DNA from: an uncultured Candidatus Saccharibacteria bacterium
GTDB taxonomy: Bacteria > Patescibacteriota > Saccharimonadia > Saccharimonadales > Saccharimonadaceae
Reading direction: 5' to 3'
DNA length: 46,898 bases
Assembly: GCA_947302125.1 (NCBI GenBank)
Contig: CAMYUL010000006.1
Location: 1 to 46,898 of the forward strand
The position numbers and the translations under genes were made by a program. Shown here piece after piece: positions 3,449 through 46,898 of the stretch (position 1 is its first letter; every line of letters starts with the position of its first letter). The notes under the pieces were generated by a model. It did not search any database and was not told the origin of the DNA. It was given only the letters and a program-made list of their open reading frames with translations.

Positions 3449-3465
3449 TGCGCAATATCTTATGC

Positions 3466-3471: not shown

Positions 3472-3477
3472 TAAACT

Positions 3478-7622: not shown

Positions 7623-7629
7623 TATAACC

Positions 7630-27871: not shown

Positions 27872-27878
27872 ACTCTAT

Positions 27879-27884
27879 ATTATA
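27879..27884 (-). promoter_or_regulatory. -10 box of the 65-aa protein gene, leaderless geometry
   Basis: Minus-strand TATAAT ends 7 nt before the ATG at 27871. Confidence 0.6.
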
Positions 27885-27949
27885 CCCTATCAAACACTAT
27901 ATGTGGAAAAACGTTGTAAATAATACAACAAAATTAACCATATTTAGTA

Positions 27950-27978
27950 TTGACACCCCACATTTAGTGTCTTACAAT
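27950..27978 (+). promoter_or_regulatory. nrdD-nrdG promoter (TTGACA - 17 - TACAAT)
   Basis: A consensus -35 TTGACA (27950-27955) and TACAAT (27973-27978) are spaced by 17 nt. The predicted start is near 27985, leaving a leader of about 78 nt with AAGGAGGT before the ATG at 28063. Confidence 0.85.
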
Positions 27979-28003
27979 GGTAACCAGACACTAGATATAG
28001 CGT
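27955..28003 (+). promoter_or_regulatory. Tandem NrdR-box-like operators over the nrdD promoter
   Basis: ACACTAGATATAGCGT (27988-28003) matches the NrdR-box consensus ACACWATATATWGTGT at 14 of 16 positions. A weaker box (27955-27970, ending TTTAGTGT) matches 12 of 16 and lies in the -35/-10 spacer. Their centres are 33 bp apart, about three helical turns, as expected for paired NrdR sites. A third partial match, ACACTATATGTGG, starts at 27894. NrdR itself is not in the window. Confidence 0.72.
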
Positions 28004-28062
28004 CTAGCCGAATAACATACAAAAACGAACAAAACGATATCATTAAGGAGGTAATAGTTTTT

Positions 28063-30453: not shown

Positions 30454-30456
30454 TTA

Positions 30457-30942
30457 ATGAAAATTCGCCTCTCGGGTCCAATTGAGCACGATTCTATCGT
30501 CAATGGCTATGGCCTTCGCGCCGTAGTCTGGACCCAGGGGTGTCCTATCCATTGCAAAGGCTGCCAAAACCCAGAAACCTGGGCTTTTGACGGCGGCCTA
30601 GAAGTAGATATTGAAGAAGTTAAGGATGAACTCCGCGGATTAAAGGGCCAAAGTGGCCTCACCTTCTGCGGTGGCGAACCAAGTTTCCAGGCCAAAGCCT
30701 GCACCGAAATTGCCAAGTGGGCCAAGGAAGAACTTGGCTGGAACATCTGGAGCTTCTCTGGTTACACTTATGAAGATTTAAAAGCCCAGGGCGGTGACGC
30801 CTGGGAATTCGTAAAGACATTAGATGCGCTCATCGACGGACCGTTTATTCTTGCCGAGCGCGACCTCACCCTCAAATTCCGTGGATCTAGGAATCAACGC
30901 CTGTTACATCTTAAGAACGGTGAAATTACCGATATCGAATAA
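30457..30942 (+). CDS. nrdG: Anaerobic ribonucleotide reductase-activating protein
   Basis: NrdG is the radical-SAM activase that makes the glycyl radical on NrdD using a 4Fe-4S cluster and SAM. The 161-aa protein has the cluster motif C-x3-C-x2-C (CPIHCKGC, Cys29, Cys33, Cys36) in WTQGCPIHCKGCQNPETW, and TFCGGEPSFQA, the SAM-contact GGE motif. The length is normal. It lies 3 nt after nrdD and must be co-transcribed with it under the same NrdR-type promoter. The Fe-S genes iscS-iscU follow directly on the same strand. Confidence 0.97.
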   Translation: MKIRLSGPIEHDSIVNGYGLRAVVWTQGCPIHCKGCQNPETWAFDGGLEVDIEEVKDELRGLKGQSGLTFCGGEPSFQAKACTEIAKWAKEELGWNIWSFSGYTYEDLKAQGGDAWEFVKTLDALIDGPFILAERDLTLKFRGSRNQRLLHLKNGEITDIE

Positions 30943-30993
30943 TCCGCTAGCGACCGATAATCATAATCAATTTTATTTTACAACAATCTAATC

Positions 30994-30999
30994 TATAAT
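30994..30999 (+). promoter_or_regulatory. -10 box of iscS-iscU
   Basis: TATAAT directly abuts AAGGAG, and the ATG follows 10 nt after the box. A start at the usual distance would leave only about 3 nt of leader and cut the Shine-Dalgarno sequence, so either initiation is leaderless here or another promoter is used. Confidence 0.5.
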
Positions 31000-31009
31000 A
31001 AGGAGAACC

Positions 31010-32140
31010 ATGATCTACTTGGATTATTCCGCAACTACTCCTCTTATTGAGGATGCCAAAAAAGCAATGATCTCCGCCATGGAATTACATGGCAACCCTT
31101 CCGCACTCCACACTCCTGGCCATGAGGCAATGAATGTCATCGAGGATGCCAGGGAAGAGATCGCCAAATTAATCAACGCTCAGCCAGAAGAGATTTTATT
31201 TACTTCTGGCGGATCAGAATCCAACAACACTATAACCAACATTTTTGCCGGCGAGAAAATCGCAGTTTCCGCGATCGAGCATCCGTCTGTGTTAGAATCT
31301 GCCAAATTGCGCTGCGAACCTACCATTATCCCCGTTAACGAGCAGGGTATAGTTGAAGATATTCATGATTACATACTAGGCACTAAACTAGTCAGCATTA
31401 TGCTTGCCAATAACGAAATCGGCACAATCCAGAATATCAAAGAACTCGCCAAGACAGCGCATGAGAGCGGCGCATTGTTTCACACTGACGCCACTCAGGC
31501 TCTTGGCAAAATCAAGATTGACGTCAAGGATCTAGATGTTGATTATATGACTTTGTCTAGCCACAAAATCGGCGGTCCTATCGGTATTGGCGCGTTATAC
31601 ATCAAGAAGGGGGTACCGTTCCAGCCATTTATTGTTGGCGGACATCAGGAGCATGGCAAACGCGCCGGCACTTACCAAACAGTCAACATTGCTGGATTTG
31701 GCGCTGCCGCAAAATACGCCAACAATCATCAAATTTGGGATATTTATGATCAGAAAGTACGCCCTCTGCGTAATTTACTAGCAGAACGCATCTTGAAAGA
31801 GGTTCCATTTAGTAGTATCAATAGCAATCTAGAGACAGCTCTACCGCATCTTTTAAATTGCTCATTCAAGGCGGCCGAAGGTGAGTCAATTCAGCTTTAT
31901 CTCGACGCCGAAGGTGACGTCATTGTCAGTACCGGCTCAGCCTGCGCCTCTGGTGACGGCAAACCATCGCACGTCTTAATGGCTACCAGTGGAGATGCCG
32001 AAGTAGCGCACTCGTCTATCCGCTTTTCCTTCGGCTTAGACACTACCGAAGCTGACGTTGACCACGTTATGGAATATTTACCAGGAATCGTTAAAAGATT
32101 ACAGGGAATTAGTACTATTAAAATTGAGGAGGAAGCATAA
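31010..32140 (+). CDS. iscS: Cysteine desulfurase (IscS/NifS family)
   Basis: This PLP enzyme takes sulfur from cysteine for Fe-S cluster assembly and tRNA thiolation. The 376-aa protein begins YLDYSATTP, has the HTDATQALGK segment, the PLP-binding lysine Lys186 in SSHKIGGPIG, and the active-site Cys312 in STGSACASGDGKPSH on a short loop. The length is typical of NifS-like class I desulfurases. The ribosome binding site AAGGAG lies 4-5 nt before the ATG. The stop overlaps the iscU start by 1 nt (TAATG). Its placement after nrdDG suggests supply of clusters for NrdG. Confidence 0.94.
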   Translation: MIYLDYSATTPLIEDAKKAMISAMELHGNPSALHTPGHEAMNVIEDAREEIAKLINAQPEEILFTSGGSESNNTITNIFAGEKIAVSAIEHPSVLESAKLRCEPTIIPVNEQGIVEDIHDYILGTKLVSIMLANNEIGTIQNIKELAKTAHESGALFHTDATQALGKIKIDVKDLDVDYMTLSSHKIGGPIGIGALYIKKGVPFQPFIVGGHQEHGKRAGTYQTVNIAGFGAAAKYANNHQIWDIYDQKVRPLRNLLAERILKEVPFSSINSNLETALPHLLNCSFKAAEGESIQLYLDAEGDVIVSTGSACASGDGKPSHVLMATSGDAEVAHSSIRFSFGLDTTEADVDHVMEYLPGIVKRLQGISTIKIEEEA

Positions 32141-32631
32141 TGACTACTGCAAAAGCGCCAAAAACTGCCAAAGCGACCAAAGCCACAAAAGCTACCAAGA
32201 CAAAGACTGCCGCAAACGGCTTTCTTGCCGGCACCCCATGGGTTTATACTGACATCGTCAAAGAACATTTCTTGCACCCACGCAACTTTTACATGGGCGA
32301 CGAGAGTCAGTATCAGCGCGACGGAGAGGGAATCGTAGGTAATCCTATTTGTGGTGATCAAATGCTCATGATGATCCAAGTAGATAAGGAGACTGATAAA
32401 ATCAAAGATGTAAAATGGAAAACTTACGGATGCGCCTCCGCCATCGCTAGTACTTCCGCCTTGTCAGAATTAGCCAAAGGTCGCACCCTAGACGAAGCCC
32501 TACGTATTACAGCCGAAGAGATTGAAGAATATCTTGGCGGCTTGCCAAAGCACAAGTTCCACTGCTCCGTACTAGGCCACGATGCTCTAGCCGCAGCCAT
32601 CAAAAATTACCGAGAAAAAGCCGCAAACTAA
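32140..32631 (+). CDS. iscU: Fe-S cluster scaffold protein IscU/NifU-like with Lys/Ala/Thr-rich N-terminal tail
   Basis: IscU is the scaffold on which IscS builds Fe-S clusters. The core (about 35-160) has the three cluster ligands Cys71 (GNPICGDQ, with Asp73), Cys98 (YGCASAIAS) and Cys142 (KFHCSVLG). The family's LPPVK motif reads LGGLPKHK. The first 25 residues are a repetitive basic tail (KATKATKATKTKTAA) encoded by 9-nt degenerate repeats, absent from ordinary IscU. It overlaps iscS by 1 nt and ends in a 4-nt convergent overlap with the large surface-protein gene. No isc/suf accessory genes are visible. Confidence 0.92.
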   Translation: MTTAKAPKTAKATKATKATKTKTAANGFLAGTPWVYTDIVKEHFLHPRNFYMGDESQYQRDGEGIVGNPICGDQMLMMIQVDKETDKIKDVKWKTYGCASAIASTSALSELAKGRTLDEALRITAEEIEEYLGGLPKHKFHCSVLGHDALAAAIKNYREKAAN

Positions 32632-35600
32632 GCCGCTACCGTCCGATTGCGTAGCTCATCATAGACAATCGCATAATTCATAACGGCTTTTTCCGCCTCA
32701 GCTACCACTGTCATGTCGTCATACTGGATTTCCTCTTCTTCAGTCGGGCCGAGAGGGTACTTGTCAGTTGGGTCATATTTAGCCAAGAATTCTGCATAAT
32801 CTAAGAGGTCTAATACCGCTATGACCTGTTCCTTGCTCTTGCCAGAATAACGCGCAATAATACCCTCGTAGGACTGGTCTAATGGATTCTCATTATAATA
32901 ACGCGCAATGGTCTTATACGTTGGCGTCTTACCCTTAATAAGCCCAGCGGAGTCCATCCATTCGTTCTTTTCGATAAAGTTCTGGTAATATTTTTGCTCT
33001 TCCCAGAAATTCGCGCCACCGCGAGTCGGATCCTCGAAACGCTTATAGAAATCATCTGTCACCGTACCAACGTTAACGCCATTAGTGTTACCAGAGGAAA
33101 CAGTATAAGCCGTACCACTGACCCAACGAGACATTACATCGCTATGAGCAACTGAATCTTCCATATCGTTGTTCCACTCAGGCATAGGGCCCCAATTCCA
33201 CTCGCTAATATACGGGTTTTCGCAATATTTCTCATAATCAGACGGATAGCCGTTTGACTCCCTACTAAGCTCGACGCCGGTGCCAAGATTGCATGGATGG
33301 ATACGACCTTGCGTGAAATCTGCCTTAGCAAGCCATTGAATATTTTCATTATCAGCAACACCATATTCCGAATTGCGCTGGCCATTTACAATAATATAAG
33401 TCGCCAAAGCACCATTGATATTGACTACTGGCATCTTTTGCTTATCAATCTTGAAGTCGAGCACACACTCGCCCGGCTCAGCGTTATTCTCAGCCAGCTC
33501 CTGGCCAATCGTGCCACTAGCGAGTAGATTTGGCCACCCAGATTGATATCCCATATACTCAAAGTTCGTAGGGCCCCTAGAATATTTCCACTCAATTGGC
33601 CAGTCAAAGTTATAATAAGGAACATAGTCGCCATCGTCCCTAATGCCGTTCCCATTAAGGTCATATCCAATATACCTTCTCTCGTGATACCAGTTACTTT
33701 CACAACCTTTTGGCTCGCCTTCATAAGTACCGTATTCGCCTATTATTTCTAGCTTTTCTTCGTAAATGTCTGACCAGTGATGTTCATAGTTCGCTTCTTC
33801 CTCGTTTACCGGACCATCCATATACATTGGATCAGTATCTGCAGAACGTTTCTTGATGTCAGACTTTCCACCGCCATGCGTTGCCACTCTAGATACGCTC
33901 GGCTCACCATCTTCATAGTCAAACGCATAGCCGCCAATGTATGTGCCTTCATCATCATAGCGCATACTCGCTACCGACTCAAATGCCTGGATTGGCGTCG
34001 TGCCAAAAAGCGATGGGTCTGATCCATAGTACGGATTACAAATAGCGTTCGCAACGCTTGTTGTTGAATTTTGCATCACACAGTCGCCAATGGACCCTAC
34101 CAACTCCGCGTCGGAAATTGCGCTAGAAGTCGGAAGTAAACTCGTAATCGAATTTGACAACGCACTACCCAATGTTGACATCGTAGAAGTTAACGTCAGG
34201 GAAGAAGAATTCACGGCAAGTGGCATCATGCTAGTCACGATGCTTCCAAGGAAGGTATTCTTAGAGGTAACATCGAACGGGCTCTTTGTGCGACGCTCTA
34301 ACCAGGCATTTTCTGCCACTACTTCTTCTTGTACGCGTTTAAATGCAACCGTTGCGTCAAGGCTACCGATGGTTTGTCCCTCAGATTTCGCATGTTCGCC
34401 AAAGTATCTTTCTGTAGCCGTGCCAATGCCTCCACCCTGGACATTACCATCTACATCTGTACCGAAGTATTTGCGTTCTTTCATCTGATTGAACCGAGCA
34501 ATCTGTGGGCTCAACGCTTCAACACCGGCATTAGTCATACTTTGCCCGCCAAGCGCAAGGAACGCTTTTACTTTACCCCAAGCCTTCTGAAAAATTGAAG
34601 CAATTCTAGGGATCACTCCTGCATTATCATAATCAATCGTGTTCGCCACATATTCACAAGATCTATATTCATCTTCTGTAATATCTCCACCCCAATTAAC
34701 TTCTGTGCCATTAGCCTGCGGGCTAATATTTTTTACAGCCTCACTGCCAGCCGTTAAGGTTTTTCCGCCAAATAGATCCTGCATATACTCTGACCCTGCC
34801 GCGCCAGTTTGCATCAACATAGTAGTGATCGTCGCCTGAGGCGCCTCTGTCCCATATCCAGCCAGCGTTTTATCAATCGATTCAAGATACATAGCAGTAA
34901 TTAGCATCTGTTTATACGTTTCCGAAGCGGTAGTAACTGCGGTAATTTCATTCGATGCAGCGATTGCACCACATCCAGGAAAGCTACCCTTAGAACCACT
35001 CATTATCTCCTCTACCCTCTCCTCTAATGACTGTCCCGTATCAGAACTCTCTGTATGTCCCCTCTCCTCAATAATCTTCTCTATAGCTTCATAATCTTTC
35101 TCATTGCTTCCAGATTTCTCAAAATTACGGAAAAAGTCCCTAGAAATGCCCAATCTTGCTACCATTGTATCCGCCACAGGGGTAAACCATGTTGCTACGT
35201 CTCCCCTATACGCGCTAGTAGCTATCATATACTTCTCTTTAATTGTACCGTTTTGCATAGCCTCAGAAAAACCTTCTACTACAGCTACCTCTGGAGAAAG
35301 CCCCAAATTCGCCAAAATCTCTTCTTTAACAGCCTCATAATCCACATCGCCACCATCTGTTGAGGCACCATTATCCGCAATCGCCTCACCAGTCTTAGTC
35401 ACTCCTACTCTACTATCACCGGTAATCACCACTGTTTCACCGCCGGGCAATTCATAAGATAGCGCCTTTTCTTCCTCGGAGTACTTAAAACCAGCATCTT
35501 CAAAATCCCTAATCTGTTCTTCAGATAGCGGCACATTTGCATATGCCAGATCACCATATGCTGATTCACTTTCACTTTCCCCAAGTTGAACACTGTTGAT

Positions 35601-36068
35601 CATATTGTCTGTAGTGGCAGCCGCAGAAACAGTGGTGGTATTATGTTTTTCCGTCTCTAAAGCCTTATAGCTACTCGCAAACGACCCCTGTCCCAAGAAA
35701 ATCAACACGATGAATACTATTATCAAAACAAGCACCACTACGGCAATTGGTATTATAGCCTTAGAAAGTCCACCCCCTTTAATCTTTGGCATATGGTTAT
35801 TTTTACCACCGGTGCCCACACTGCTAGCTTCACCGGTGGGACCGCCCCCGATGCCACCTCTGTTGCCTTTTTTGTCTTGCCCCTGTTCTTTTTCTTTAGC
35901 CCCCTCATAAAAGCCCCCCGTATCTGATGAGGCGGCATCTTCCGAATTTCTAAGCTTATCTCTGGCAGACTCCTCTTCGGAATCACCACCGCTCAAAAAA
36001 TCAGGGGAAAAACTCGGGCTGGTATCATATAAACCACCAGAATCCTGCTCGACCTCATCTTCTTCCAT
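32628..36068 (-). CDS. Large (1146-aa) single-span surface protein of unknown function
   Basis: I do not recognise a named family. The cytoplasmic N-terminus (about 100 residues) is acidic and Gly/Ser-rich with two GG(L/F)Y motifs (SGGLYDTSP, TGGFYEGA). One strongly hydrophobic segment follows (about 104-126). The remaining ~1000 residues should lie outside, with Thr/Ser/Asn-rich regions and Cys spaced in a way that could form disulfides. Short tails with GG(L/F)Y motifs before a single span resemble what I recall from secretion-linked surface proteins of Saccharibacteria, which is only an impression. The ATG at 36068 was preferred over an in-frame ATG at 36092, which lies inside the -10 region. 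The 3' end overlaps iscU by 4 nt. Confidence 0.78.
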   Translation of the reverse strand: MEEDEVEQDSGGLYDTSPSFSPDFLSGGDSEEESARDKLRNSEDAASSDTGGFYEGAKEKEQGQDKKGNRGGIGGGPTGEASSVGTGGKNNHMPKIKGGGLSKAIIPIAVVVLVLIIVFIVLIFLGQGSFASSYKALETEKHNTTTVSAAATTDNMINSVQLGESESESAYGDLAYANVPLSEEQIRDFEDAGFKYSEEEKALSYELPGGETVVITGDSRVGVTKTGEAIADNGASTDGGDVDYEAVKEEILANLGLSPEVAVVEGFSEAMQNGTIKEKYMIATSAYRGDVATWFTPVADTMVARLGISRDFFRNFEKSGSNEKDYEAIEKIIEERGHTESSDTGQSLEERVEEIMSGSKGSFPGCGAIAASNEITAVTTASETYKQMLITAMYLESIDKTLAGYGTEAPQATITTMLMQTGAAGSEYMQDLFGGKTLTAGSEAVKNISPQANGTEVNWGGDITEDEYRSCEYVANTIDYDNAGVIPRIASIFQKAWGKVKAFLALGGQSMTNAGVEALSPQIARFNQMKERKYFGTDVDGNVQGGGIGTATERYFGEHAKSEGQTIGSLDATVAFKRVQEEVVAENAWLERRTKSPFDVTSKNTFLGSIVTSMMPLAVNSSSLTLTSTMSTLGSALSNSITSLLPTSSAISDAELVGSIGDCVMQNSTTSVANAICNPYYGSDPSLFGTTPIQAFESVASMRYDDEGTYIGGYAFDYEDGEPSVSRVATHGGGKSDIKKRSADTDPMYMDGPVNEEEANYEHHWSDIYEEKLEIIGEYGTYEGEPKGCESNWYHERRYIGYDLNGNGIRDDGDYVPYYNFDWPIEWKYSRGPTNFEYMGYQSGWPNLLASGTIGQELAENNAEPGECVLDFKIDKQKMPVVNINGALATYIIVNGQRNSEYGVADNENIQWLAKADFTQGRIHPCNLGTGVELSRESNGYPSDYEKYCENPYISEWNWGPMPEWNNDMEDSVAHSDVMSRWVSGTAYTVSSGNTNGVNVGTVTDDFYKRFEDPTRGGANFWEEQKYYQNFIEKNEWMDSAGLIKGKTPTYKTIARYYNENPLDQSYEGIIARYSGKSKEQVIAVLDLLDYAEFLAKYDPTDKYPLGPTEEEEIQYDDMTVVAEAEKAVMNYAIVYDELRNRTVAA

Positions 36069-36078
36069 ACTGCTTATA

Positions 36079-36084
36079 ATTATA
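36079..36084 (-). promoter_or_regulatory. -10 box of the large surface-protein gene
   Basis: Minus-strand TATAAT ends 10 nt before the ATG at 36068, giving a very short or no leader. Confidence 0.55.
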
Positions 36085-36110
36085 ATATGCATAAACTTTT
36101 CTGTAAACTA

Positions 36111-36185: not shown

Positions 36186-36848
36186 ATGAAAACTAGGATC
36201 TATAGTACACTAATAATGGTTATCGTAGCAATAGCGATTACAGGTTGTGGCGACAACAAAACGGTCGCAGTAAAGCCTGAAATCGAAAAGATAGAAGAAA
36301 CCACCGTTAAAGAAGCTCCAGCCTCAACTACCGTTGAAACTAAAGAAGTAGAAGAAAAAACTTCTAAGGACAGCTCTAGCTTCTACGTTGATGGAGCCTT
36401 TTATCCGAAGGCATACGCAGCACAATTTAATGGCTTTAAAGAATACGATAGTACCCCTAGCACAGACTGCTTTAGTATTACGTGTGACGGTACTGAATAT
36501 TTTATTATAAGCCAAAGAAAAATCTGCTTAGTATATTATACCGACGGAGAAAGATGCTACTGCTCTGGAATCGAAGATCCTTCAGCGAAAGAAAGTCAGG
36601 AATGCCAGATTAAAACAAGCGAGGTTATATGCGGCGATTTGAATGTATACCTCAATTCAATAACTGCTATTCTAGATCTTACCGCAAAGGGTGATGGCAA
36701 GAATATGAAAAACTGGGAATTTCCTGGAATAACATATTCGTACACAGTCTTCGATTGCGAAGCAATCTATAGAAACGATGGTTTCATTGACGCCCACAAT
36801 CTTAACAACGTCAATGACGCCGAATCTTTTATCTATCGCCAAAAATAA
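36186..36848 (+). CDS. Predicted lipoprotein, Cys-rich, function unknown
   Basis: The 220-aa product starts with a lipoprotein signal peptide (hydrophobic core about 6-19, lipobox ITGC with Cys21), so it should be anchored outside the membrane. A Glu/Lys/Thr-rich linker (about 25-65) leads to a globular part (about 70-220) with eight Cys (for example TDCFSITCDG, KICLVYY, RCYCSG, QECQ, VICGD, FDCEA), probably in disulfides. No family was recognised. The ATG at 36186 is preceded by AAAGGAGGG at 7-8 nt. An in-frame ATG at 36165 lies upstream of that ribosome binding site and is unlikely. A strong terminator follows. Confidence 0.78.
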   Translation: MKTRIYSTLIMVIVAIAITGCGDNKTVAVKPEIEKIEETTVKEAPASTTVETKEVEEKTSKDSSSFYVDGAFYPKAYAAQFNGFKEYDSTPSTDCFSITCDGTEYFIISQRKICLVYYTDGERCYCSGIEDPSAKESQECQIKTSEVICGDLNVYLNSITAILDLTAKGDGKNMKNWEFPGITYSYTVFDCEAIYRNDGFIDAHNLNNVNDAESFIYRQK

Positions 36849-36856
36849 CCATTACA

Positions 36857-36890
36857 TCAAAAACCGCCCCGAGCTATCGAGGCGGTTTTT
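36857..36890 (+). terminator. Rho-independent terminator after the lipoprotein gene
   Basis: A 12-bp stem with one mismatch (AAACCGCC-CGA paired with TCG-AGGCGGTTT, loop GCTA) is followed by a T-run at 36886-36890. Confidence 0.9.
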
Positions 36891-36950
36891 ACTTGCCCAA
36901 AAAACCGCCAGACTTAACAGCCGCGGCCCCTCGACACCTGCCCACAATTA

Positions 36951-36959
36951 TGCTATTAT
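36951..36959 (+). promoter_or_regulatory. Extended -10 promoter of the ASCH gene
   Basis: TGCTATTAT (TATTAT at 36954-36959) lies about 33 nt before the ATG at 36993. The leader carries AGAAAGGA. Confidence 0.6.
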
Positions 36960-36992
36960 ATTTCCAATCTAACCTAAACCAGAAAGGAAATC

Positions 36993-37331
36993 ATGGCAAC
37001 TCATTCTATGAACCTCCAGCCAAGGTACTTCGACTTCATCAAAGACGGCACCAAACGCATCGAGCTTAGACTTTTCGACGAAAAACGCCAAAAAATCGCC
37101 CTCGGTGACATTATCGAATTCAACAAATCTGAAACCGAAAAATTCGAAGCCAAGGTCATCGGCCTCCTGCGCTATGATTCTTTCGAAAGCCTCTTTAACG
37201 ACTTTGATGTCAGCATCCTCGCCGACGCCTCAATGACTAAAGACGAGCTCCTCGGCATCCTCGAAGAGTTCTATACCCCAGAAAAGCAAAAAGAATACGG
37301 CGTCATCGGCATCAGAATCGAGCTTCTCTAA
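36993..37331 (+). CDS. ASCH-domain protein
   Basis: This 112-aa single-domain protein has the ASCH fold, related to PUA. ASCH proteins bind or act on RNA bases, and the E. coli member YqfB hydrolyses N4-acetylcytidine. The motif is visible in KDGTKRIELRLFDEKRQKI (Lys21, Glu24, Arg26) with LGDIIEF. It starts with a good AAAGGA ribosome binding site. It converges, across a shared terminator, on a protein made of a similar ASCH domain plus an acetyltransferase. Whether it is an amidohydrolase or a binding protein is unclear. Confidence 0.82.
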   Translation: MATHSMNLQPRYFDFIKDGTKRIELRLFDEKRQKIALGDIIEFNKSETEKFEAKVIGLLRYDSFESLFNDFDVSILADASMTKDELLGILEEFYTPEKQKEYGVIGIRIELL

Positions 37332-37344
37332 TAACAAAACCTAG

Positions 37345-37375
37345 AAAAAAGGCCCCACGAAAGGGGGCCTTTTTT
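37345..37375. terminator. Bidirectional terminator between the two ASCH genes
   Basis: AAAAAAGGCCCC (37345-37356) pairs with GGGGCCTTTTTT (37364-37375) around a 7-nt loop. A-rich and T-rich ends allow function in both directions. Confidence 0.92.
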
Positions 37376-37386
37376 GAAGCGATAGG

Positions 37387-38247
37387 CTAGATCTGTCCGT
37401 TAAAGACGATCTCAGAGTACTTGTCGTTATAATAGCCGACGTCTAAGACCTGAGTCTGTTTCCAGCCATATTTTTCGATCAATCTCTTGAACTGAGATAT
37501 CTTATAATCGGCAATGGAAGCCAACGGCTTATCTGTACCCAACCAAGCAAACGATGCCTCAATCAGCTGAGTGGCGATACCCTTATTCTGGTACCTCGGA
37601 GACACATACAGAGTACAAATCTTCCTCTCCATCTCCGGTTTAGCCGCCGCCGGATCATCACCGTCCTTGGTGACAAGATCCTTCTTGAGCACGATCATTC
37701 CTGCAAAATCATCACCGTAATACATAGTGATAATCTCACGCGTTCCATCAAAGATACCCGGAACGTATTTCGTGTAAAAATGATCACAATGCTCTGGATA
37801 ATCTTCGCTGATCCAATCTGTAGCGCAATAGGAATCATACACCAGCTTAGAAAACATTTTGTTCTCGTCCGCCTTCAAAAGCTCTGACGCTACGTACTTT
37901 TTCAGCTTCGGCTTCTCATCAATCGGCTTCAACTCAAAAGCATACACACCAAGAGCCTCCCGGTCAGCAGGATAAATCTCGCGTAAAATCCTCAGCGCGC
38001 CATCCTCGGTCATTCCAGGCAAAACCTGCTCCACGCCCTCACGCGCAAGCAGCTCCTTGAAGCTGTCGTACCTTTGTACGCGCAACACTTCAAACAAATT
38101 CGGGCCATAGTTCTCAAAAGTGATAGTATCACCCTCATGCACCTTCTTAACGGCTGCATACCCAACCCGAACTTCCAGGCTCTTTTCGCCGGTATTAAGT
38201 TGACGGAAATATTCTTTTTTAATTCTCCAGACGTGCTTCTTCGTCAT
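37387..38247 (-). CDS. ASCH domain-GNAT acetyltransferase fusion protein
   Basis: The 286-aa protein joins an N-terminal ASCH domain (about 1-108, with NTGEKSLEVRVGYAAVKKV, Lys22, Glu25, Arg27) to a C-terminal GNAT domain (about 115-286). The acetyl-CoA loop appears as RYQNKGIATQLI (about 218-229), preceded by the beta strand CTLYVS. The fusion suggests acetylation linked to recognition of an RNA base or nucleotide, which is inference. The ASCH part is similar in length and motif to the neighbouring single-domain protein. It has a ribosome binding site (AAAGGAG) and its own promoter. Acetylation of a small amine or antibiotic is another possibility. Confidence 0.85.
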   Translation of the reverse strand: MTKKHVWRIKKEYFRQLNTGEKSLEVRVGYAAVKKVHEGDTITFENYGPNLFEVLRVQRYDSFKELLAREGVEQVLPGMTEDGALRILREIYPADREALGVYAFELKPIDEKPKLKKYVASELLKADENKMFSKLVYDSYCATDWISEDYPEHCDHFYTKYVPGIFDGTREIITMYYGDDFAGMIVLKKDLVTKDGDDPAAAKPEMERKICTLYVSPRYQNKGIATQLIEASFAWLGTDKPLASIADYKISQFKRLIEKYGWKQTQVLDVGYYNDKYSEIVFNGQI

Positions 38248-38297
38248 CGTTAATCAACTCCTTTCAATGTTCTTAACCGGTTTTTAGTTACTCACTA

Positions 38298-38326
38298 ATG
38301 ATACCATATAAACCGCAAAAAGTCAA
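38298..38326 (-). promoter_or_regulatory. Promoter of the ASCH-GNAT gene (TTGACT - 17 - TATCAT)
   Basis: On the minus strand TTGACT (38321-38326), a 17-nt spacer and TATCAT (38298-38303). A leader of about 40 nt carries AAAGGAG. Confidence 0.7.
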
Positions 38327-38365
38327 GATAAAACCTCACCCCTACCTTTCTCATTCGGCTTATGC

Positions 38366-38371
38366 TATAAT
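38366..38371 (+). promoter_or_regulatory. Extended -10 promoter, leaderless geometry
   Basis: TATGCTATAAT ends 6 nt before the ATG at 38378. No ribosome binding site is present. Confidence 0.7.
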
Positions 38372-38377
38372 AAAATC

Positions 38378-39193
38378 ATGAATGACGAATTTAACTTTAA
38401 ATCTGATGAAATTAAACCTGTAAACGAGTTTGGCAACAATACTAGCATCGCAGAGCCCCAGCCTCAGCCTCAACCTTTTTCATCAGCCCCAAAAACCAAA
38501 AACCCTAACACGCTGATTTACATCATCGTTGCTCTTGGTGTCGTCGCCCTTATCGCTATCACCGTCTGTATCTGGCTAATCGTCGACAAGACCAAATCAA
38601 CCACCATTGAAACTACTAACAATAAGACTTCCACGTCCACTACCGAGGAGCAGGAAATTACCGCCAAGACTCTTGGCTTCTTCCCAAAGAAGATCAAAAA
38701 TCCTGCCGACGGCGTCACTTACCGCCTCGGCGTCCACCGCGAAGACAATGATGAGAATGGCGTTTTTGGCGCTTATATCAACACCGAAAATTCCGGTGTG
38801 GAGCTCTATATCTACTGGGCGTTTATTAGCGGCTACTACGGCATTGACACCGGCGGCAGAAGCGACCGCCAGCTCGCCCACATCAACTTCGACCAGCCAA
38901 TTGCCGACATCGCCCTTGGCGAAAGCGGTCAGACCGTCGGCGGCGACGTTCTCCTCTTCCTCATGCAAGACGGCACTGTCGAGTATATGCCAATCGTCAA
39001 AGCCCTCACCGAAAACCGCCTCGAAAGCTATGGCAAGATGGGCGGGCTAACAGACATCGTCAAATTCTACCGCACCGACGCCATCGATAGTAACGGCGAC
39101 TTCTCCGGCTACATCACCACCCTCGCTCAGAAAACCAACGGTCAAATTATCGATCTTCAAGGCTTCATGCGCTCCGCTACTACCATAAACTAA
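38378..39193 (+). CDS. Membrane-anchored protein of unknown function
   Basis: I do not recognise a family. The 271-aa product has a short cytoplasmic N-terminus with a Pro/Gln repeat (EPQPQPQPF), one membrane span (about 46-69, LIYIIVALGVVALIAITVCIWLIV), a Thr/Ser/Lys linker (about 72-95) and an outer domain of about 175 residues (LGVHREDNDENGVFGAYI, LFLMQDGTVEYMPI). The layout is the same as in many Patescibacteria single-span surface proteins. It begins right after a -10 box. The tRNA-Gln gene follows after about 25 nt. Confidence 0.75.
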   Translation: MNDEFNFKSDEIKPVNEFGNNTSIAEPQPQPQPFSSAPKTKNPNTLIYIIVALGVVALIAITVCIWLIVDKTKSTTIETTNNKTSTSTTEEQEITAKTLGFFPKKIKNPADGVTYRLGVHREDNDENGVFGAYINTENSGVELYIYWAFISGYYGIDTGGRSDRQLAHINFDQPIADIALGESGQTVGGDVLLFLMQDGTVEYMPIVKALTENRLESYGKMGGLTDIVKFYRTDAIDSNGDFSGYITTLAQKTNGQIIDLQGFMRSATTIN

Positions 39194-39217: not shown

Positions 39218-39292
39218 TGGGTCGTCGCCAAGTGGTAAGGCAACGGGTTTTGGTCCCGTCATTCGCAGGTTCGATCCCTGCCGACCCAGCCA
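39218..39292 (+). tRNA. tRNA-Gln (UUG), complete
   Basis: This 75-nt cloverleaf has acceptor stem TGGGTCG/CGACCCA, a short D arm, anticodon stem ACGGG/CCCGT around TTTTGGT (anticodon TTG), T arm GCAGG-TTCGATC-CCTGC, discriminator G and an encoded CCA. The ABC exporter follows 50 nt downstream with no terminator between them. The left edge of the window repeats all but its first 10 nt. Confidence 0.97.
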
Positions 39293-39341
39293 TGTTTTTT
39301 ATTTAAACGGCTTGATAACCACTAACTACAAAGGAATATCT

Positions 39342-40118
39342 ATGAACACAGTTATTGAGGCTAAAAACCTCACCAAAACTTATGGCAAAAAAGCTACTGC
39401 TTTTACTGCCCTAAAAGACATCAACTTAAAAATCTACGAGGGTGAGTCCGTCGCCATCGTCGGTAAATCCGGCTCCGGCAAGTCTACCTTGATGCATCTT
39501 CTCGCCCTTCTCGACACCCCGACCAAAGGTACGGTTCTCGTCGACGGCAAAGATTCCACCAAGTTATCAACCCGCGACCTAAACAAGCTCAGAAACGAGC
39601 GCTTCGGCTTCGTCTTCCAGCAGTTCTTTATGAACACCAAAGACACGGTCTTAGAAAACGTCTTACTTCCGCTCAAGATCGCCAGAAAGTCCCGCAAAGA
39701 ACGTAAGGTACTTGCAAACAGCGCCCTAAAAATCGTCGATCTCGATTCTAAGGCCAGAAACAAAGCTACCGACCTCTCCGGCGGCCAGAAGCAGCGTGTT
39801 TGTATCGCCCGCGCCATCGTCAACAATCCTAAGATTATCTTCGCCGATGAGCCTACCGGCAACCTCGACTCTGCTACCGGCGACAAAATTACCGACTTAT
39901 TGTTCGATCTCAACGAGAATCAAGGTGTCACTCTTATCATTGTCACCCACGACGAAGATCTCGCTAAGCTTTGCAACCGCATCATTAGAATTTCCGATGG
40001 CAAAATCATTTCCGACCAGACCGTCAGAAAAGATTCCAAGGCCAAGGCTAGCGCCCGCCACGAAGCAGAAGCTGCCCGCGTCAAAAAAGCCAACGAAAAG
40101 AAAGGAGGTAGAAAATGA
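39342..40118 (+). CDS. MacB/LolD-type ABC transporter ATP-binding protein (repeat copy)
   Basis: The protein is identical to that of 115-891, with the same ribosome binding site, the same ATGA overlap with the permease and the same upstream tRNA-Gln, here complete. If the molecule is circular, this is the same gene as the left copy and not a second one. Confidence 0.93.
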
Positions 40119-41425
40119 AATTAACCGATATTATTGCTACAGCAAACCACAACCTATTCCGCAGCAAAACCCGCTCTATTCTAACCATCGTCGCTATCTT
40201 TATCGGTAGCTTCACTATCATTATGAGCAACGCCATTAACTCCGGCGTTAATGACTATATCGACAAGCAGGTCGAAAGCGCTGGTGGCGACGGCTACCTA
40301 GAAATGATGCCAACCGCTATCGCCGAAAACGCCATGTCTGCCATTTCCGGCAATGGCGCCGTCGAGTACAAAGAAAATTCCGTTAGTGCCGCCGACCAGC
40401 CATACATCACTGACGAGCAGCTCGCCAAAGCTCGCACTATTGACGGCCTCGAGTCGATCGATGCACTCCACACTGCTAGTGTTGACTATATTGCCAGTAC
40501 TCAAACCGACAAGAAATATAAGTTATTTAATCTCAACCTAGTTCCTCGCGGCGATATCCACTTTGATCTTTCCGCTGGCCGCAAGCCAGATCCAGAAAGC
40601 TCTGCCTACGAAATCGCCCTCACCGAAGATTTCGTCTCAATCCTCGGCTTTAAAGACAACGAAGACTCCATCGGTAAGACCATCACTCTTGCTGTGCCAA
40701 ATACCATCGACTGCTACACAGCAGCCACCCATTCCGAATGCCAGAGACTAGTTGATGCTACCGTTGTCGGCGTCCAGGCTCCAGGCGTTCTTGCCTCTGG
40801 CGGTCCACGCGCTAATATCGCACTCTTTGAGAAAGTTTACGATCTCGCTTCCGACGGTATGTCCAAGGAAACTAAGAATCGCGCTTATCAGGCCACCGCT
40901 CAAGTCGATCCTAAGCGTGTCGAAGAAATCAAGGCCAAGCTCAAAGAGATCGGTCTCACCGCTATGACCATCGATGATCAGGTTGGCATGATCCGCACTT
41001 TCTTTGATGCTATCCTCGTTGTCTTCAATATCTTTGGTGGTATCGCCCTTCTTGCTGCCGCTATCGGCATCATCAATACACTCTTCATGTCCGTTCAAGA
41101 ACGTACCCGCGAAATCGGCCTCATGAAAGCCGTCGGTATGGGCAGTGGTAAAATCTTCCTCAGCTTCTCCACTGAAGCTATCTTGCTTGGCTTCTGGGGC
41201 TCCGTTCTCGGTATTGCAGTTTCTATGCTCATCGGCTACGGCCTCAACGCCCTTGCTCACGCTACCTTCTTAGCCGAACTCCCGACTTTCAATATCGTAA
41301 TTTTCGAGCCAGCTAATATGCTAGTAATCATTCTTATCATTATGATTATCGCTTTCATCGCTGGTACCGCTCCAGCTTTGCGCGCCGCTAAGAAGAATCC
41401 AATCGACGCTTTGCGTTACGAATAA
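40115..41425 (+). CDS. MacB-like ABC transporter permease (repeat copy)
   Basis: The protein is identical to that of 888-2198: one N-terminal span, a MacB-type extracytoplasmic domain and a C-terminal FtsX domain. No substitution was seen, which fits redundancy in the assembly better than an old duplication. Confidence 0.93.
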   Translation: MKLTDIIATANHNLFRSKTRSILTIVAIFIGSFTIIMSNAINSGVNDYIDKQVESAGGDGYLEMMPTAIAENAMSAISGNGAVEYKENSVSAADQPYITDEQLAKARTIDGLESIDALHTASVDYIASTQTDKKYKLFNLNLVPRGDIHFDLSAGRKPDPESSAYEIALTEDFVSILGFKDNEDSIGKTITLAVPNTIDCYTAATHSECQRLVDATVVGVQAPGVLASGGPRANIALFEKVYDLASDGMSKETKNRAYQATAQVDPKRVEEIKAKLKEIGLTAMTIDDQVGMIRTFFDAILVVFNIFGGIALLAAAIGIINTLFMSVQERTREIGLMKAVGMGSGKIFLSFSTEAILLGFWGSVLGIAVSMLIGYGLNALAHATFLAELPTFNIVIFEPANMLVIILIIMIIAFIAGTAPALRAAKKNPIDALRYE

Positions 41426-41427
41426 TT

Positions 41428-42675
41428 ATGAAATTTATCGAAGTTTCCTCTCCAGTTAAAATCGACAAACTTGTCCCCGGTGGACAGGGAATCGGTACTT
41501 TTACTGGAGAAGACCTCGACAAGAATGACAAATCTCCAGAAAACATGCGCCTTTTGAGCCTTATTGGCAAGAAAGGCTTTTTCTGGAACGTACTCCCAGA
41601 AGAAATTGTCACTAAGTTTACGATTACCAAAAATAAATCCCATTATTTTGAAGCTATCGCCGAAGAGATCACAAACCCTTCTTCGCATCGCGTCACGCCA
41701 AAGGATACCTGCTTCCTTTCCACTTCTCCTTGGCAAATCATGGATTATGACTACGAACTCGAGCAAAAAGCTAATTTGCTTCAAGAAATGTTCTCGCAGG
41801 CCGGCTTATCCTTAGCGACGGGTGGCGTCGCTGTAAAAACTGACGGTAATGACTTTTATTACCGCAACAAGATGGAATACTCCCTCTACTGGGACGTCGA
41901 AAACTCAGAGATCAGACTAGCCCAGCACGCTCGCGGTTCTCACCGCAAAGTCCCATTAGTCACTTCTAGCATCGAACGTCCAGAAATTTTCAAGAAGGCT
42001 CAAGAAATTGTCGCCGAGCTAAATGCTAATCACGAAGAAGCCAGGAAATACCAATCGCTTCTGCTTCGCTGTGACAAATCCGGCAAAGTCGAAGGTGGAC
42101 TCTTTGAAAACAAAAAGCCCCACCCTAAGTTTAATAATTTAGAAGACGAAATTCTCGGCCACAAGTATTCTTACTCACCAAATGGTTTCTTCCAGATCAA
42201 TCTCCCGGTTTACGAGCTAGCTCTAACGGAGATCAAAAGCTACATAGAAACCAACAATGTGCTCGACCTTTATTCTGGCGTCGGCACCATTGGCCTCTCC
42301 GTTGCCCGCGGCAAGCACCTCACTCTAGTCGAAAGCAACCGCGCCGCCTATGAAGAATTGGAAAAGAACTGCAAAGCGATAGGACCCGCCACCCCTTGTG
42401 CTGTCCTTTCTAACTCCGAAGACGCCTTAGAGTACATCGCTCCCGACCAAACCGTCATCCTCGATCCTCCTCGCGCCGGCTGCGACAAAAAACTCATCGA
42501 AAAGCTACTGGAAATAAAACCTCAACGCATCATTTATTTGTCATGTAATCCATCAACCCAGGCCCGCGATGTCAAACTCCTCGAAGAAAAGTATCAACTC
42601 ATCAAAGTCACCCCATACAATTTCTTCCCACGCACTCCACATCTAGAGAATCTCGTCGTCCTAGACTTAAGATAG
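41428..42675 (+). CDS. TrmA/RlmD-family RNA methyltransferase (repeat copy)
   Basis: The protein is identical to that of 2201-3448, with the nucleophile Cys373 and the same loss of the Fe-S cysteines. The GC-rich motif copies fall at 41814-41832 and 42376-42393. Confidence 0.87.
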   Translation: MKFIEVSSPVKIDKLVPGGQGIGTFTGEDLDKNDKSPENMRLLSLIGKKGFFWNVLPEEIVTKFTITKNKSHYFEAIAEEITNPSSHRVTPKDTCFLSTSPWQIMDYDYELEQKANLLQEMFSQAGLSLATGGVAVKTDGNDFYYRNKMEYSLYWDVENSEIRLAQHARGSHRKVPLVTSSIERPEIFKKAQEIVAELNANHEEARKYQSLLLRCDKSGKVEGGLFENKKPHPKFNNLEDEILGHKYSYSPNGFFQINLPVYELALTEIKSYIETNNVLDLYSGVGTIGLSVARGKHLTLVESNRAAYEELEKNCKAIGPATPCAVLSNSEDALEYIAPDQTVILDPPRAGCDKKLIEKLLEIKPQRIIYLSCNPSTQARDVKLLEEKYQLIKVTPYNFFPRTPHLENLVVLDLR

Positions 42676-42692
42676 TGCGCAATATCTTATGC

Positions 42693-42698
42693 TATAAT
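42693..42698 (+). promoter_or_regulatory. Extended -10 promoter of gpsA (repeat copy)
   Basis: Same TATGCTATAAT as at 3466-3471, 6 nt before the ATG. Confidence 0.7.
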
Positions 42699-42704
42699 TA
42701 AACT

Positions 42705-43568
42705 ATGAAGATTTGTTTTTTAGGTGCAGGCGCATTCGGCAAAGCTCTTGCCAAGGTTGCTGAATATAATGGTCACGAAGTCAGCTTCTACGACCCTATC
42801 GTTTTTCCAGAAATTGAGCTAGACACTGCCACACATGGCAAGGACCTAATTGTTTATGTTGCACCATCCGACAAAGCCGCAGAGCTCTTGCCAAATCTCG
42901 ACAAAGAAACTCCGCTTATTTGCGCTAGCAAAGGGTTCTTGTCATTAAAGCCGTTTGAAGGTTTCAAGAATTTTTCCGCCCTGGCTGGGGCCGCTTTTTC
43001 CGAGCAAGTCATGGACACTCTCTCTGACGACATAGAAGATAAGCCTTCGCTCAGACTCACCGCCAGCTCCGAACTTGCCGAAACTATTTTTAGCACCGAG
43101 CAAATTACTATCGAATATACCAAAGACACTTTAGGCATCCTACTTTGCGGCGCCATGAAGAATATCTATGCCATCGGCGCCGGTGCTTATTACGAGAATC
43201 AACTGCAAGAAAGCTGTGGCCCGACAACTCCAACAGACCCAACGGACCAGAACTCGAGCCTTTCCGCCATCCTGCCATATTTAGAAACCGCCGCCGCCGA
43301 AACCCAAAAAATCCTAGAAGTAAACGGCGCCGACAAAAACACTCTCAAGCTTTCTTGCGGCGTGTCAGACTTAGTCTTAACTTGTACCGACAATTCTCGT
43401 AACTTCCGCTTCGGAAGATCCCTCATTACCGGAGCCAAGGAAGACGCCGCCACCATCGAAGGTGTCAGCGCTATCAATAATTTAGAAAATTACCAAGAGT
43501 TTAAGATCCCTGACTCCGCCACGCTCATAAAGGATATTATAGAAAAGGTCAAAAATGCCGTTAAATGA
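42705..43568 (+). CDS. gpsA: Glycerol-3-phosphate dehydrogenase (repeat copy)
   Basis: The protein is identical to that of 3478-4341, with the same leaderless start and the same 14-nt overlap with the helicase-nuclease gene. Confidence 0.9.
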   Translation: MKICFLGAGAFGKALAKVAEYNGHEVSFYDPIVFPEIELDTATHGKDLIVYVAPSDKAAELLPNLDKETPLICASKGFLSLKPFEGFKNFSALAGAAFSEQVMDTLSDDIEDKPSLRLTASSELAETIFSTEQITIEYTKDTLGILLCGAMKNIYAIGAGAYYENQLQESCGPTTPTDPTDQNSSLSAILPYLETAAAETQKILEVNGADKNTLKLSCGVSDLVLTCTDNSRNFRFGRSLITGAKEDAATIEGVSAINNLENYQEFKIPDSATLIKDIIEKVKNAVK

Positions 43569-46500
43569 AAAGCAAAAAGAAGCTGTCGAATACTTAGAGG
43601 GGCCTCTTCTAGTCTTAGCTGGGCCAGGTACCGGCAAGACCCAGTTGCTCTCATCTAAGGTCGAATATATTTTAAAAAACACTGACGCCACGCCAGAGTC
43701 TATTCTGTGTCTCACCTTTACCGAGAACGGCGCCAGAAACATGCGCGAGCGCTTAAAATCTATCGTTGGCCCCGCCGCCGGCAAAGTCAATATTCACACT
43801 TACCACGCCTTCGGCTCTGACATCTTAGCCAAATACAAAAATTACGCCACCGAGTTTGATCGCAATCTCGACAGCAACATTGATTCTGTCGCGCAGTACA
43901 AGATTATTAAGAATATCCAGGATTCCCTAGACCCAATGGATATCATGCGCCGCGACAATGTCAGGGATATTATTGATACTATCGCTTCCGCCAAATCTGC
44001 TCGTCTCACTGGTAAGGATCTCGAAAAAATCGCTAAGGATAACCTCGAAACTACCAACATCCTAAATTCCGCCATCGACCCGCTCTTAAAGAAGATCGAG
44101 CGTGGTATGAAATTCGACATCGGCGTTAGCACGGTTTATGAGCCTATCCTAAAAATCCTAGTCGAGAATTCTTCAAGTAAGCCACTCGCCGGCAACATCG
44201 AGAAGGAAGCCAACCATCTCGCCCGCGAATTAAACCACATCATCGAGTCCGAGAAGGAAAAAGATAAGCCATCCATCTCCCCGCTTACTAGTTGGAAGAC
44301 TAAGCGTTTCGAGCTCGACGAGAACGGCGACTTCCGCCTCAAAAACCGCATCGCCAATAAGAAGCTAGAAAGCCTCGCCAAAATTATGCAGGCTTACGAA
44401 ACCAAACTCGAAGAAACCGGACTGTTTGACTTTGCTGACATGATTGAGCAGGCCATCAAGACCCTTCGCCAGGACCAAGGCTTCAAACTTACACTAGAAG
44501 AACAATATCAATACATCTTACTCGACGAGTTTCAGGATACTAACACCGCCCAGGCCGAGCTTATTTATGAACTCACCGATTATGAGCAGCCGATTATTAT
44601 GGCTGTTGGTGACGACGATCAGGCCATCTTTGCTTTCCAGGGCGCCAACGCTTCCAACCTTCTCGAGTTCCAGAATCATTACAATGCCAAGATCGTCACT
44701 TTGACCGAGAACTACCGTTCCGGTTCACCAATTCTCGACACTTCATTCAAAATTCGCGAGCAAATCACCGAGAGCTTTGCCAAGGCTCACAATATTATCA
44801 AGCGCCTTTCTGCGAACAAAAACGACGCTACTCAGATTTCTCGTCACGAGTTCATCGAATCTTCTGCCGAGTACCATTTCATCGCCGAAGAAATCGCCAG
44901 CCTAATTAATTCCGGAGTTAGCCAGTCCGACATCGCTATCATCACTCCTAAGCATAAATACGTCACCAATCTTCTACCATATTTAAAATCTCATGAGAAC
45001 ATTAATATTTCTTACGAGAAGCGCGACAACCTTTTTGAAGAGCCACACATCCATGAGCTTCTTGCTCTCTCCAAATTTATTTACGCCCTCAGCCAGAAAC
45101 AGGACCCGTCTGACAAATTGCTAGAGATTTTGTCTTTCCCATTTTTCAATTTAGCACCAGAATCTATCATTAAGGCTATCAACAAGCGTGACAAGAAAAC
45201 TACCCTCGAGTTCTTACAACAATCCGAAGACGAAAGTTTGCAAAAACTCGCTAACTTCTTCACCATCCTTGTCGAAAAAAGCTTTGATAATCCACTTGAA
45301 CTTTTCTTAGACAACTTAATCGGCACTACGGAATATGAAACTGGTCAAAAATCCCCATTTCTAGATTTTTATACTCGTGATAATTCTTATAGCACTTTTG
45401 AGCTATACGAGAACCTCCATGTCTTGCGTGAGGCTATCAAAAAACATTCCAGCGCAGAAACTTCTACCTCGCAGAAAAAGACTTTAAAAGACTTAGTAGA
45501 CTTTATTAATGATTATGAGTCTGCCGGCGAGCCGTTGATGAATACTAGCCCTTATCAGGATGCTGCCGACGCCGTACAAATTCTTACCGCACATAAGAGC
45601 AAGGGGCTCGAGTTTGATTATGTTTTCTTAGTTTCCACAGACGATCGCGCTTGGGGCAACGCCAAAGGCAATAATAACCTTCTTAGTCTTCCGCAAAACT
45701 TAATCGAAATCCGTCACACCGGCATTACTGAAGACGAACGCCTCCGCCTCTTCTTTGTCGCTATTACTCGTGCCAAGACGCATCTTATCATGACTAATTC
45801 CATCAAAGATTTTTCCGACAAAGAGCCGGCCAGGCTCGAGTATCTCGCCGAGCACGAAGACGAGAAGAAAAACATCATCTCCCCATACTTACCAGAGGGC
45901 AGTCAAATCGTTGAAAAACATTACGATAATCTCCCGGACGACAAAAAGCGCGCCGATCTCGTAAATTCCTGGCTAGCTAATTACTTGACCTTTGATGGCA
46001 ATCTCAAAAACATCTTGTTAAAACGCCTAGAGAATTATAAGCTCACCGCCACCGACCTCACCTCATTCATTGACGTAGTTCATGCTGGCCCGCAAGAATT
46101 TTATAAGAGCCACATTCTTAATGCGCCAGAAGAATCTTTCTCCGAAACTCTCACCTTCGGCAACCTCATCCACGCCACCTTTGAGCAGGTCACTAATAAC
46201 CACTTAACCGATGACGAAGCTCTAGCCTATTTTGAAAAGTCCGCCAATGAGGCCACCATCCCACCGGAACAACTTGACGAGATTATTAAGAAAGGCAAGT
46301 TTAGCCTAGAGAAGTCACTCGCAGAATTTGGCAAGCTCTTACGCCACGACTCCGCCCGTGCCGAAGTTAATCTCTACCACGAACATTTAAGCCTAGACAA
46401 CATCCCCCTCACTGGCAAAATCGACCATATCGACATCAATGAAACTGATAAGATTATCGAAGTCTATGATTTCAAAACTTCCGGGTTCAAAGATTCTAAA

Positions 46501-46830: not shown

Positions 46831-46849
46831 AATCCGCTCATGCTATAAT
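46820..46849 (+). promoter_or_regulatory. Promoter of the surface-protein gene (repeat copy)
   Basis: TTGCAA, an 18-nt spacer and TATAAT, as at 7593-7622. The -10 box ends 7 nt before the ATG. Confidence 0.75.
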
Positions 46850-46856
46850 TATAACC

Positions 46857-46898
46857 ATGAACAGTTCAAAGAAGGTCCTTGGGAGGAATTATCAGCTT
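46857..46898 (+). CDS. Surface-protein gene, first 14 codons only (cut by window edge)
   Basis: It encodes MNSSKKVLGRNYQL, the start of the signal peptide of the protein at 7630-9756. The window ends here. If the sequence is circular, this is the same gene as the left copy. Confidence 0.9.
   Translation, partial: MNSSKKVLGRNYQL

Follow-up and report, generated by a model that had tools for sequence, protein, structure and literature searches.

Two ASCH genes face each other across a short gap in the very small genome of a gut bacterium, and one of them is fused to a GNAT acetyltransferase; do they form a working pair, and if so, on what would it act? The genes lie in a 46,898-nt contig from an uncultured Candidatus Saccharibacteria bacterium, and this whole stretch of analysed DNA is referred to here as the window. 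The first-pass annotation had proposed a paired writer and eraser of N4-acetylcytidine (ac4C), or a sensor. The features concerned are the following:

36993–37331, plus strand: free ASCH protein (ASCH1), 112 aa; Pfam ASCH match of 46.4 bits; PDB relatives 2z0t, 1s04 and 1xne
37387–38247, minus strand: ASCH-GNAT fusion protein, 286 aa; Pfam ASCH (27.1 bits) and Acetyltransf_1 (33.4 bits)
37924–38229, minus strand: ASCH domain of the fusion (ASCH2), residues 7–108; Pfam match, and fold match to 2z0t (Z 18.8)
37393–37911, minus strand: GNAT domain of the fusion, residues about 113–285; Pfam and fold matches; loop Q220-x-x-G223-x-A225
37345–37375, no single strand: bidirectional terminator common to both genes; stem with T runs on both strands
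36931–36959, plus strand: promoter-like site 5' of ASCH1; 10 of 12 consensus letters, weak
38298–38326, minus strand: promoter-like site 5' of the fusion gene; 10 of 12 consensus letters, weak

Both open reading frames were found where they had been annotated, converging on each other, and their domains are ASCH and ASCH plus GNAT by Pfam scores above the cut-offs. ASCH1 (46.4 bits) and residues 7–108 of the fusion (27.1 bits) both exceed the curated ASCH cut-off (PF04266, 21.2 bits), and residues 144–236 of the fusion (33.4 bits) exceed that of Acetyltransf_1 (20.7 bits), which places the proteins in the ASCH and GNAT superfamilies. The closest PDB relative of ASCH1 is 2z0t (E 7.5e-16), with 1s04 and 1xne also found. 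Both ASCH domains of the window carry the motif GxKxxxxR, described as that of the ASCH superfamily in an excerpt of PMC5615036. NCBIfam gave no match for ASCH1 and none over the cut-off for the fusion, Pfam gave no EVE domain in either protein at E 1, and no DNA-binding domain was among the Pfam matches of ASCH1. The two genes are the sole PF04266 matches in their own genome (G000; 673 kb, 88.6% complete).

The AlphaFold2 model of the fusion has two domains (mean pLDDT 90.3), with a pTM of 0.64, so their relative placing is less sure. Residues 3–110 of the model match the archaeal protein PH0355 (2z0t) with Z 18.8 and an rmsd of 1.2 over 107 residues, as expected for the PUA-like barrel of the ASCH superfamily. 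The solved structures nearest to both ASCH domains (PH0355, PF0455 and PF0469) come from structural genomics and are titled hypothetical; they are free single-domain proteins whose entries name no function, unlike the fused ASCH2. Residues of about 113–285 match GNAT enzymes, best 7mx2 (NatC; Z 15.9, rmsd 2.5, 146 residues). The loop Q220-x-x-G223-x-A225, which we take to be the acetyl-CoA loop of GNATs (motif Q/R-x-x-G-x-G/A), is invariant in 5/5 aligned fusions, and its retention argues that the GNAT is probably active. The earlier reading of the fusion as an acetyl-transferring enzyme coupled to ASCH, a PUA-like domain, is sound.

Most of the best fold matches of the GNAT part are protein N-terminal acetyltransferases, with NatC, Ard1 and RimI at Z 14–16. 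This would suit an RNA- or ribosome-tethered protein acetyltransferase, in which ASCH2 docks the GNAT and a protein N-terminus or lysine is acetylated in the manner of RimI or NatA. However, GNAT folds are alike and a fold reveals no acceptor, so the likeness of the modelled domain to N-terminal acetyltransferases does not settle what is acetylated, and a patchy, horizontally moving distribution (see below) is unlike that of a housekeeping enzyme. We regard such a tethered enzyme as unlikely.

The literature searches turned up no characterised ASCH-GNAT fusion, although Iyer 2005 (on ASCH) and Iyer 2013 could already mention ASCH-GNAT fusions. Full-length homologues of the fusion in other saccharibacteria are 55–65% identical to it and occur in 5 of 99 relatives (own genome included) and in 7 of the 392 genomes of the class. 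Counting the window, 14 distinct saccharibacterial loci carry intact fusions, and an assembly error as the origin of the fusion is therefore rejected. The 12 named loci all belong to Candidatus Saccharibacteria, one of them to Candidatus Nanosyncoccus alces, and the host animals named are all ruminants (roe deer, sheep, dairy cattle, goat). A scan of viral contigs, which like the genome-contig scan started from short peptide patterns and thus reaches close relatives best, gave no relative of the fusion; none of the plasmid or phage records contained a match spanning 80% of it.

A convergent ASCH1 gene lies 41–98 bp from the fusion in 13 of the 14 loci. One of these ASCH1 genes runs off its contig after 93 residues, and at the fourteenth locus (L066) the contig stops 11 bp beyond the fusion. 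The check for co-occurrence in other genomes thus bore out the pairing: because the same convergent ASCH gene is present in 13/14 loci and the remaining contig ends there, comparison of the loci confirms the neighbourhood as a conserved pair and not chance. Both genes are under purifying selection. The median dN/dS was 0.02 for ASCH1 (7 genes; 4/21 pairs), 0.10 for the fused ASCH domain (8 fusions; 11/28 pairs) and 0.07 for the GNAT domain (8 fusions; 6/28 pairs), each median covering the pairs with finite dS, as dS was saturated in the remaining ones.

The single terminator claimed between the facing genes was also confirmed, as a stem with T runs on each strand lies in the 55 bp between them (37345–37375; -21.0 and -20.1 kcal/mol, z -3.8 and -4.1). 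A consensus scan of 36700–38500 gave 3 terminator-like sites where 2.5 are expected, so the claim rests on position and strength and not on count. A stem-loop was predicted in 9/9 folded intergenic gaps of homologous pairs, with differing sequences. The promoter-like sites must be considered weak, since five were found in the scanned stretch and 2.9 are expected.

Could the pair write and erase ac4C? In the excerpt of PMC6972931 on the ac4C amidohydrolase YqfB, Lys21, Thr24 and Arg26 are essential and Glu74 is strongly needed, and the enzyme acts on free nucleosides and bases. The ASCH domains of the window type share the fold with YqfB-type enzymes, and among 37 tabulated ASCH homologues Lys21 is retained in 36 and Arg26 and Tyr89 in all 37. 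In contrast, the position of the nucleophile Thr24 is Glu in 37/37, His70 is retained in 0/37, and Glu74, around which the alignment is loose, is mostly lost (retained in 5/24 free and 0/13 fused domains). By alignment, these domains carry a Lys-Glu-Arg signature and are not YqfB-type amidohydrolases; a deacylase with another mechanism than that of YqfB is possible.

The writer side was examined through PF13718, the GNAT domain of TmcA, which writes ac4C, and through PF05636, the TmcAL family. Neither was found in 13 pair-carrying genomes (for PF13718 including G000, which is 88.6% complete), while the control genomes matched. PF13718 is also absent from the Pfam matches of the fusion, whose GNAT matches are of a general kind; TmcA (2zpa) does appear among its Foldseek matches, at rank 34 (E 2.7e-5). 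The replacement of Thr24 by Glu in all 37 homologues and the failure to find TmcA and TmcAL in the 13 genomes lead us to reject a writer and eraser working in the YqfB/TmcA manner. Of the first-pass proposal, then, the conserved pair stands (13/14 loci) and the ac4C chemistry is probably wrong. That the fusion writes ac4C and ASCH1 erases it we consider highly improbable, the shared fold and the retained Lys21, Arg26 and Tyr89 notwithstanding.

Comparison with rpoB bears on how the pair spreads. The cassette was compared over ASCH1 plus the 3'-terminal 369 bases of the fusion gene. Its DNA identity is 95–98% among G005, G036, G144 and G229, against 74–80% for rpoB, and 86–98% among G029, G291 and G398, against 79–82%; 10 of 66 genome pairs exceed a margin of 8 points. 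This comparison does not include G000, in which rpoB had no match. The 95–98% versus 74–80% identities show that the cassette moves horizontally between species. Neighbourhoods differ among many fusion loci, though not all: an arginyl-tRNA synthetase gene belongs to a three-gene cluster common to G001, G029 and G291, and on the opposite flank G398 and L066 have genes in common with G001.

In several relatives the cassette adjoins copies of a 110–300 bp repeat, and in G144 and L061 it sits between copies. The repeat combines the 3' end of a gene for a membrane-type protein of 270 aa (full gene in L212, 2479–3291) with DNA lying downstream of it. Its coded tail has 13 matches in G009; in G000 a 44-residue query from the repeat gave no match. 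Copies also recur between small genes in L044 (4166–4423, 5573–5876, 11137–11440 and 13815–13974) and in L047, L099 and L061. The repeat resembles an array of cassettes or a set of recurring attachment sites. Contigs C5 and C11 of G009 (L044, L045) hold a near-identical stretch with an additional ASCH1 copy and small genes, which is either a repeated mobile element or a duplicated assembly.

Such repeats next to the cassette could move neighbours together, and the two genes might accordingly be cargo that rides on mobile DNA with no joint action. We find this very unlikely, as both genes are under purifying selection and ASCH1 adjoins a GNAT in two further layouts, namely a tandem arrangement with a GNAT-ASCH protein and a divergent one with a lone GNAT on phage contigs.

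Close to the pair of the window is a gene cluster whose G019 homologues adjoin an ASCH1 gene without a fusion. The cluster (27865–32631) is otherwise collinear with G019, and a 1154-aa gene next to it (32628–36092) is inverted relative to its 36–37% identical G019 homologue (L049, 3624–7073). The window ends, 1–7671 and 39228–46898, are identical over 7671 bases, the second copy starting inside a tRNA-Gln gene (39218–39292); this means either that a circle of 39,227 bp was read on beyond its starting point, or that there is a duplication or an overlap from the assembly.

The tandem layout was found in other genera of the family, where, in 7/7 genomes with a full-length copy, the gene after an ASCH1 homologue (40–46% identity in the six loci compared) runs in the same direction and encodes a GNAT-ASCH protein. 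The spacing is 99–133 bp by matched stretches. This protein of ~447 aa has a clear GNAT at about 61–146 and a clear ASCH domain at about 341–444; its middle stretch is GNAT-like only on the strength of one member's weak match (E 0.13) and of a resemblance to a two-GNAT protein of Rhodococcus. The GNATs of the two architectures match each other at the general GNAT level only. No GNAT-ASCH-type relatives were found in viral contigs with the short peptide patterns. Domain order and gene orientation both differ between the two layouts, with the partnership itself retained.

In a tree of 39 ASCH domains the 19 free ASCH1 proteins group as a clade (99/98), and a second clade (97/95) unites the fused ASCH2 domains from the two architectures. 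The seven other ASCH domains fall outside both clades, some on long branches. The simplest history is an old ASCH1-ASCH2 partnership with later exchange of the joined GNAT: an ASCH2 clade common to both architectures, together with GNATs that match only at the general level, indicates that the acetyltransferase role was kept and the enzyme exchanged.

ASCH1 (E <= 1e-20) was present in 45 of the 392 genomes of the class sample (a hand count from tables), and in 14/14 of those with a full-length partner against 31/378 others (Fisher 9e-15, a value that ignores relatedness). ASCH1 thus often stands alone, whereas a full-length partner lacking ASCH1 was never seen in the class sample. G005 has an intact ASCH1 beside a truncated fusion. 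Both this case and the lone ASCH1 genes are as expected if an effector is lost first. There are also lone forms with no ASCH1 match: a lone GNAT that also has no ASCH2 match in G253 (intact) and G353 (broken), a lone GNAT of the other GNAT family in G260 and G418, and ASCH2 alone in G321.

Relatives of the GNAT outside Saccharibacteria were inspected at 17 loci (5 plasmids, 5 phage genomes and 7 viral contigs; counted by hand). An ASCH gene lies within about 2 kb in nine of them; in the other eight, including all 5 INPHARED phages, blastp found none. Two of the nine are related phage contigs in which a lone GNAT (41–42% identity to that of the window) is divergent from an ASCH1 homologue (46%), the pair adjoining a terminase gene. 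This terminase gene (L069, 3014–5410) has an intein-like and LAGLIDADG-like stretch inside.

The remaining seven loci are of the PDC-M11 kind, an assignment made by PADLOC models for L118 and L119 and by blastp to those two for the other five. All seven have the ASCH protein M11B, six have M11A (L138 is cut) and four an AAA_17-type gene. M11A is classed as a GNAT-EVE protein from weak Pfam matches (GNAT in 4/6 members, EVE in 2/6, best E 0.002) and from the operon in the excerpt of Bell et al. (PMC7641849). According to that excerpt, GNAT-EVE operons nearly always include an ASCH protein, their modules have predicted toxin-antitoxin or modified-base roles, and none of these had been characterised. 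We found no paper mentioning PDC-M11 in the literature search.

The lone GNAT in seven PDC-M11-type loci adjoins a protein of about 330–455 aa (L118, 2860–3855; L122, 3913–4974; L124, 3737–4780; L119, 4410–5708; L137–L139). This family had no Pfam match in three scanned members and a hydrophobic C-terminus in the three sequences viewed, and it is possibly a further part of the PDC-M11 candidate system.

The nearest known kind of locus is thus GNAT-EVE + ASCH (PDC-M11), in its parts and not in membership. The (PIN)-GNAT-EVE + ASCH + AAA_17 operons in the excerpted PMC7641849, which are PDC-M11 in PADLOC, combine like our pair a GNAT, a PUA-like domain and a separate ASCH protein; the AAA_17 kinase-like neighbour is frequent, not invariable. 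They too are found in mobile or phage contexts, and copies on plasmids and viral contigs have a lone relative of the window's GNAT inside or next to them. The pair of the window differs in having ASCH in place of EVE, a convergent two-gene layout and no M11A/M11B score. PADLOC gave 0 families for the fusion at E 0.1, and for ASCH1 gave PDC-M11B at E 0.031, compared with 1.8e-50 for a Pseudomonas plasmid protein. With these scores plain membership of PDC-M11 is ruled out. The GNAT-ASCH protein L107 matches PDC-M11A at E 4e-5, over its GNAT only.

ASCH and GNAT domains were also seen in other company, 4/12 ASCH-type and 5/5 GNAT-type plasmid matches having been inspected in context. In two saccharibacterial genomes (G149, and G319 with the same layout) an ASCH1-type domain, 60–61% identical, forms the C-terminus of a histidine phosphatase (L116, 5164–6051; L115, 2384–3271; Pfam was run on L116). 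On actinobacterial plasmids an ASCH domain is in frame with an annotated 'tRNA synthetase', and in Streptomyces phage Picard it lies beside one (L121, 2873–4309; L131, 2867–4357; L133, 1889–3360); the Picard protein had no Pfam match, so its annotation is unconfirmed. The Rhodococcus plasmid protein (L129, 4007–5353) combines a GNAT pair with a MazG-like end (26.7 bits, cut-off 27), is 29% identical to the GNAT part of GNAT-ASCH and has a nucleoside 2-deoxyribosyltransferase gene nearby.

The main rival reading is small-molecule detoxification or house-cleaning, in which ASCH would bind nucleosides, nucleotides or nucleoside antibiotics and the GNAT would N-acetylate them, resistance driving the spread in a competitor-rich gut. 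It draws on the histidine phosphatase joined to a related ASCH domain, on ASCH with a HAD hydrolase on a Mycoplasmopsis plasmid and with a NUDIX protein on a Streptomyces plasmid (both by annotation only), on the MazG-like end of the Rhodococcus protein, just below the Pfam cut-off, and on the free nucleosides and bases that YqfB works on in the excerpt of PMC6972931. As it leaves unexplained both the second, separate ASCH gene beside the fusion and the PDC-M11 setting of the GNAT relatives, we consider it possible but unlikely.

The reading that we prefer, tentatively and with a probability of about 0.38, is a horizontally moving module of the conflict type: the GNAT, guided by ASCH, would acetylate an RNA-linked target under the control of the free ASCH protein. 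Two ASCH lineages are kept as neighbours, ASCH2 is joined to a GNAT with an acetyl-CoA loop, and the cassette moves. ASCH2 would bind RNA or an RNA-derived ligand and so position the GNAT at an amine of that ligand or close by, our first guesses being aminoacyl-tRNA or a modified base; RNA is suggested as ligand by the general nature of ASCH domains only. Acetylation would then block or mark the target. ASCH1, made from a separate transcription unit, might bind a like ligand or the fusion itself and limit or direct the enzyme. Together the two genes would form a defence or toxin-antitoxin-like module, working like PDC-M11 loci without being one.

This reading is favoured because the pairing holds in 13/14 loci and the second layout in 7/7 genomes, because ASCH1 accompanies every full-length partner in the class sample, because the GNAT was apparently exchanged with its role kept and the cassette transferred horizontally, and because an ASCH gene lies near 9 of the 17 outside GNAT relatives, seven of them of the PDC-M11 kind. 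Type II GNAT toxins, which acetylate charged tRNA (excerpt of PMC7641849), are likewise a GNAT with a small partner, patchy and horizontally moving. Against it stand the convergent genes, which are not one operon as for those toxins, and an ASCH partner in place of a DNA-binding antitoxin, unlike usual toxin-antitoxin pairs; the PADLOC scores; the lone forms in G253, G353, G260, G418 and G321; the eight outside loci with no ASCH gene by blastp; and the nearness of the GNAT fold to N-terminal protein acetyltransferases.

A two-reader acetylation switch may also be envisaged, although we think it quite unlikely. This would be a mobile module of saccharibacteria and phages in which ASCH, joined to varied GNATs, aims acetylation at an RNA-linked target, the product being read or removed by the separate ASCH protein through a Lys-Glu pair in the position of YqfB's Lys-Thr.

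For ASCH, a widespread domain, few functions are known; here it is repeatedly tied, in several layouts, to an acetyltransferase and a second ASCH protein. If the conflict-type module is true, very small bacterial genomes would hold a defence or addiction system of about 400 residues, and the pair would help to explain the GNAT-EVE + ASCH loci found elsewhere in bacteria.
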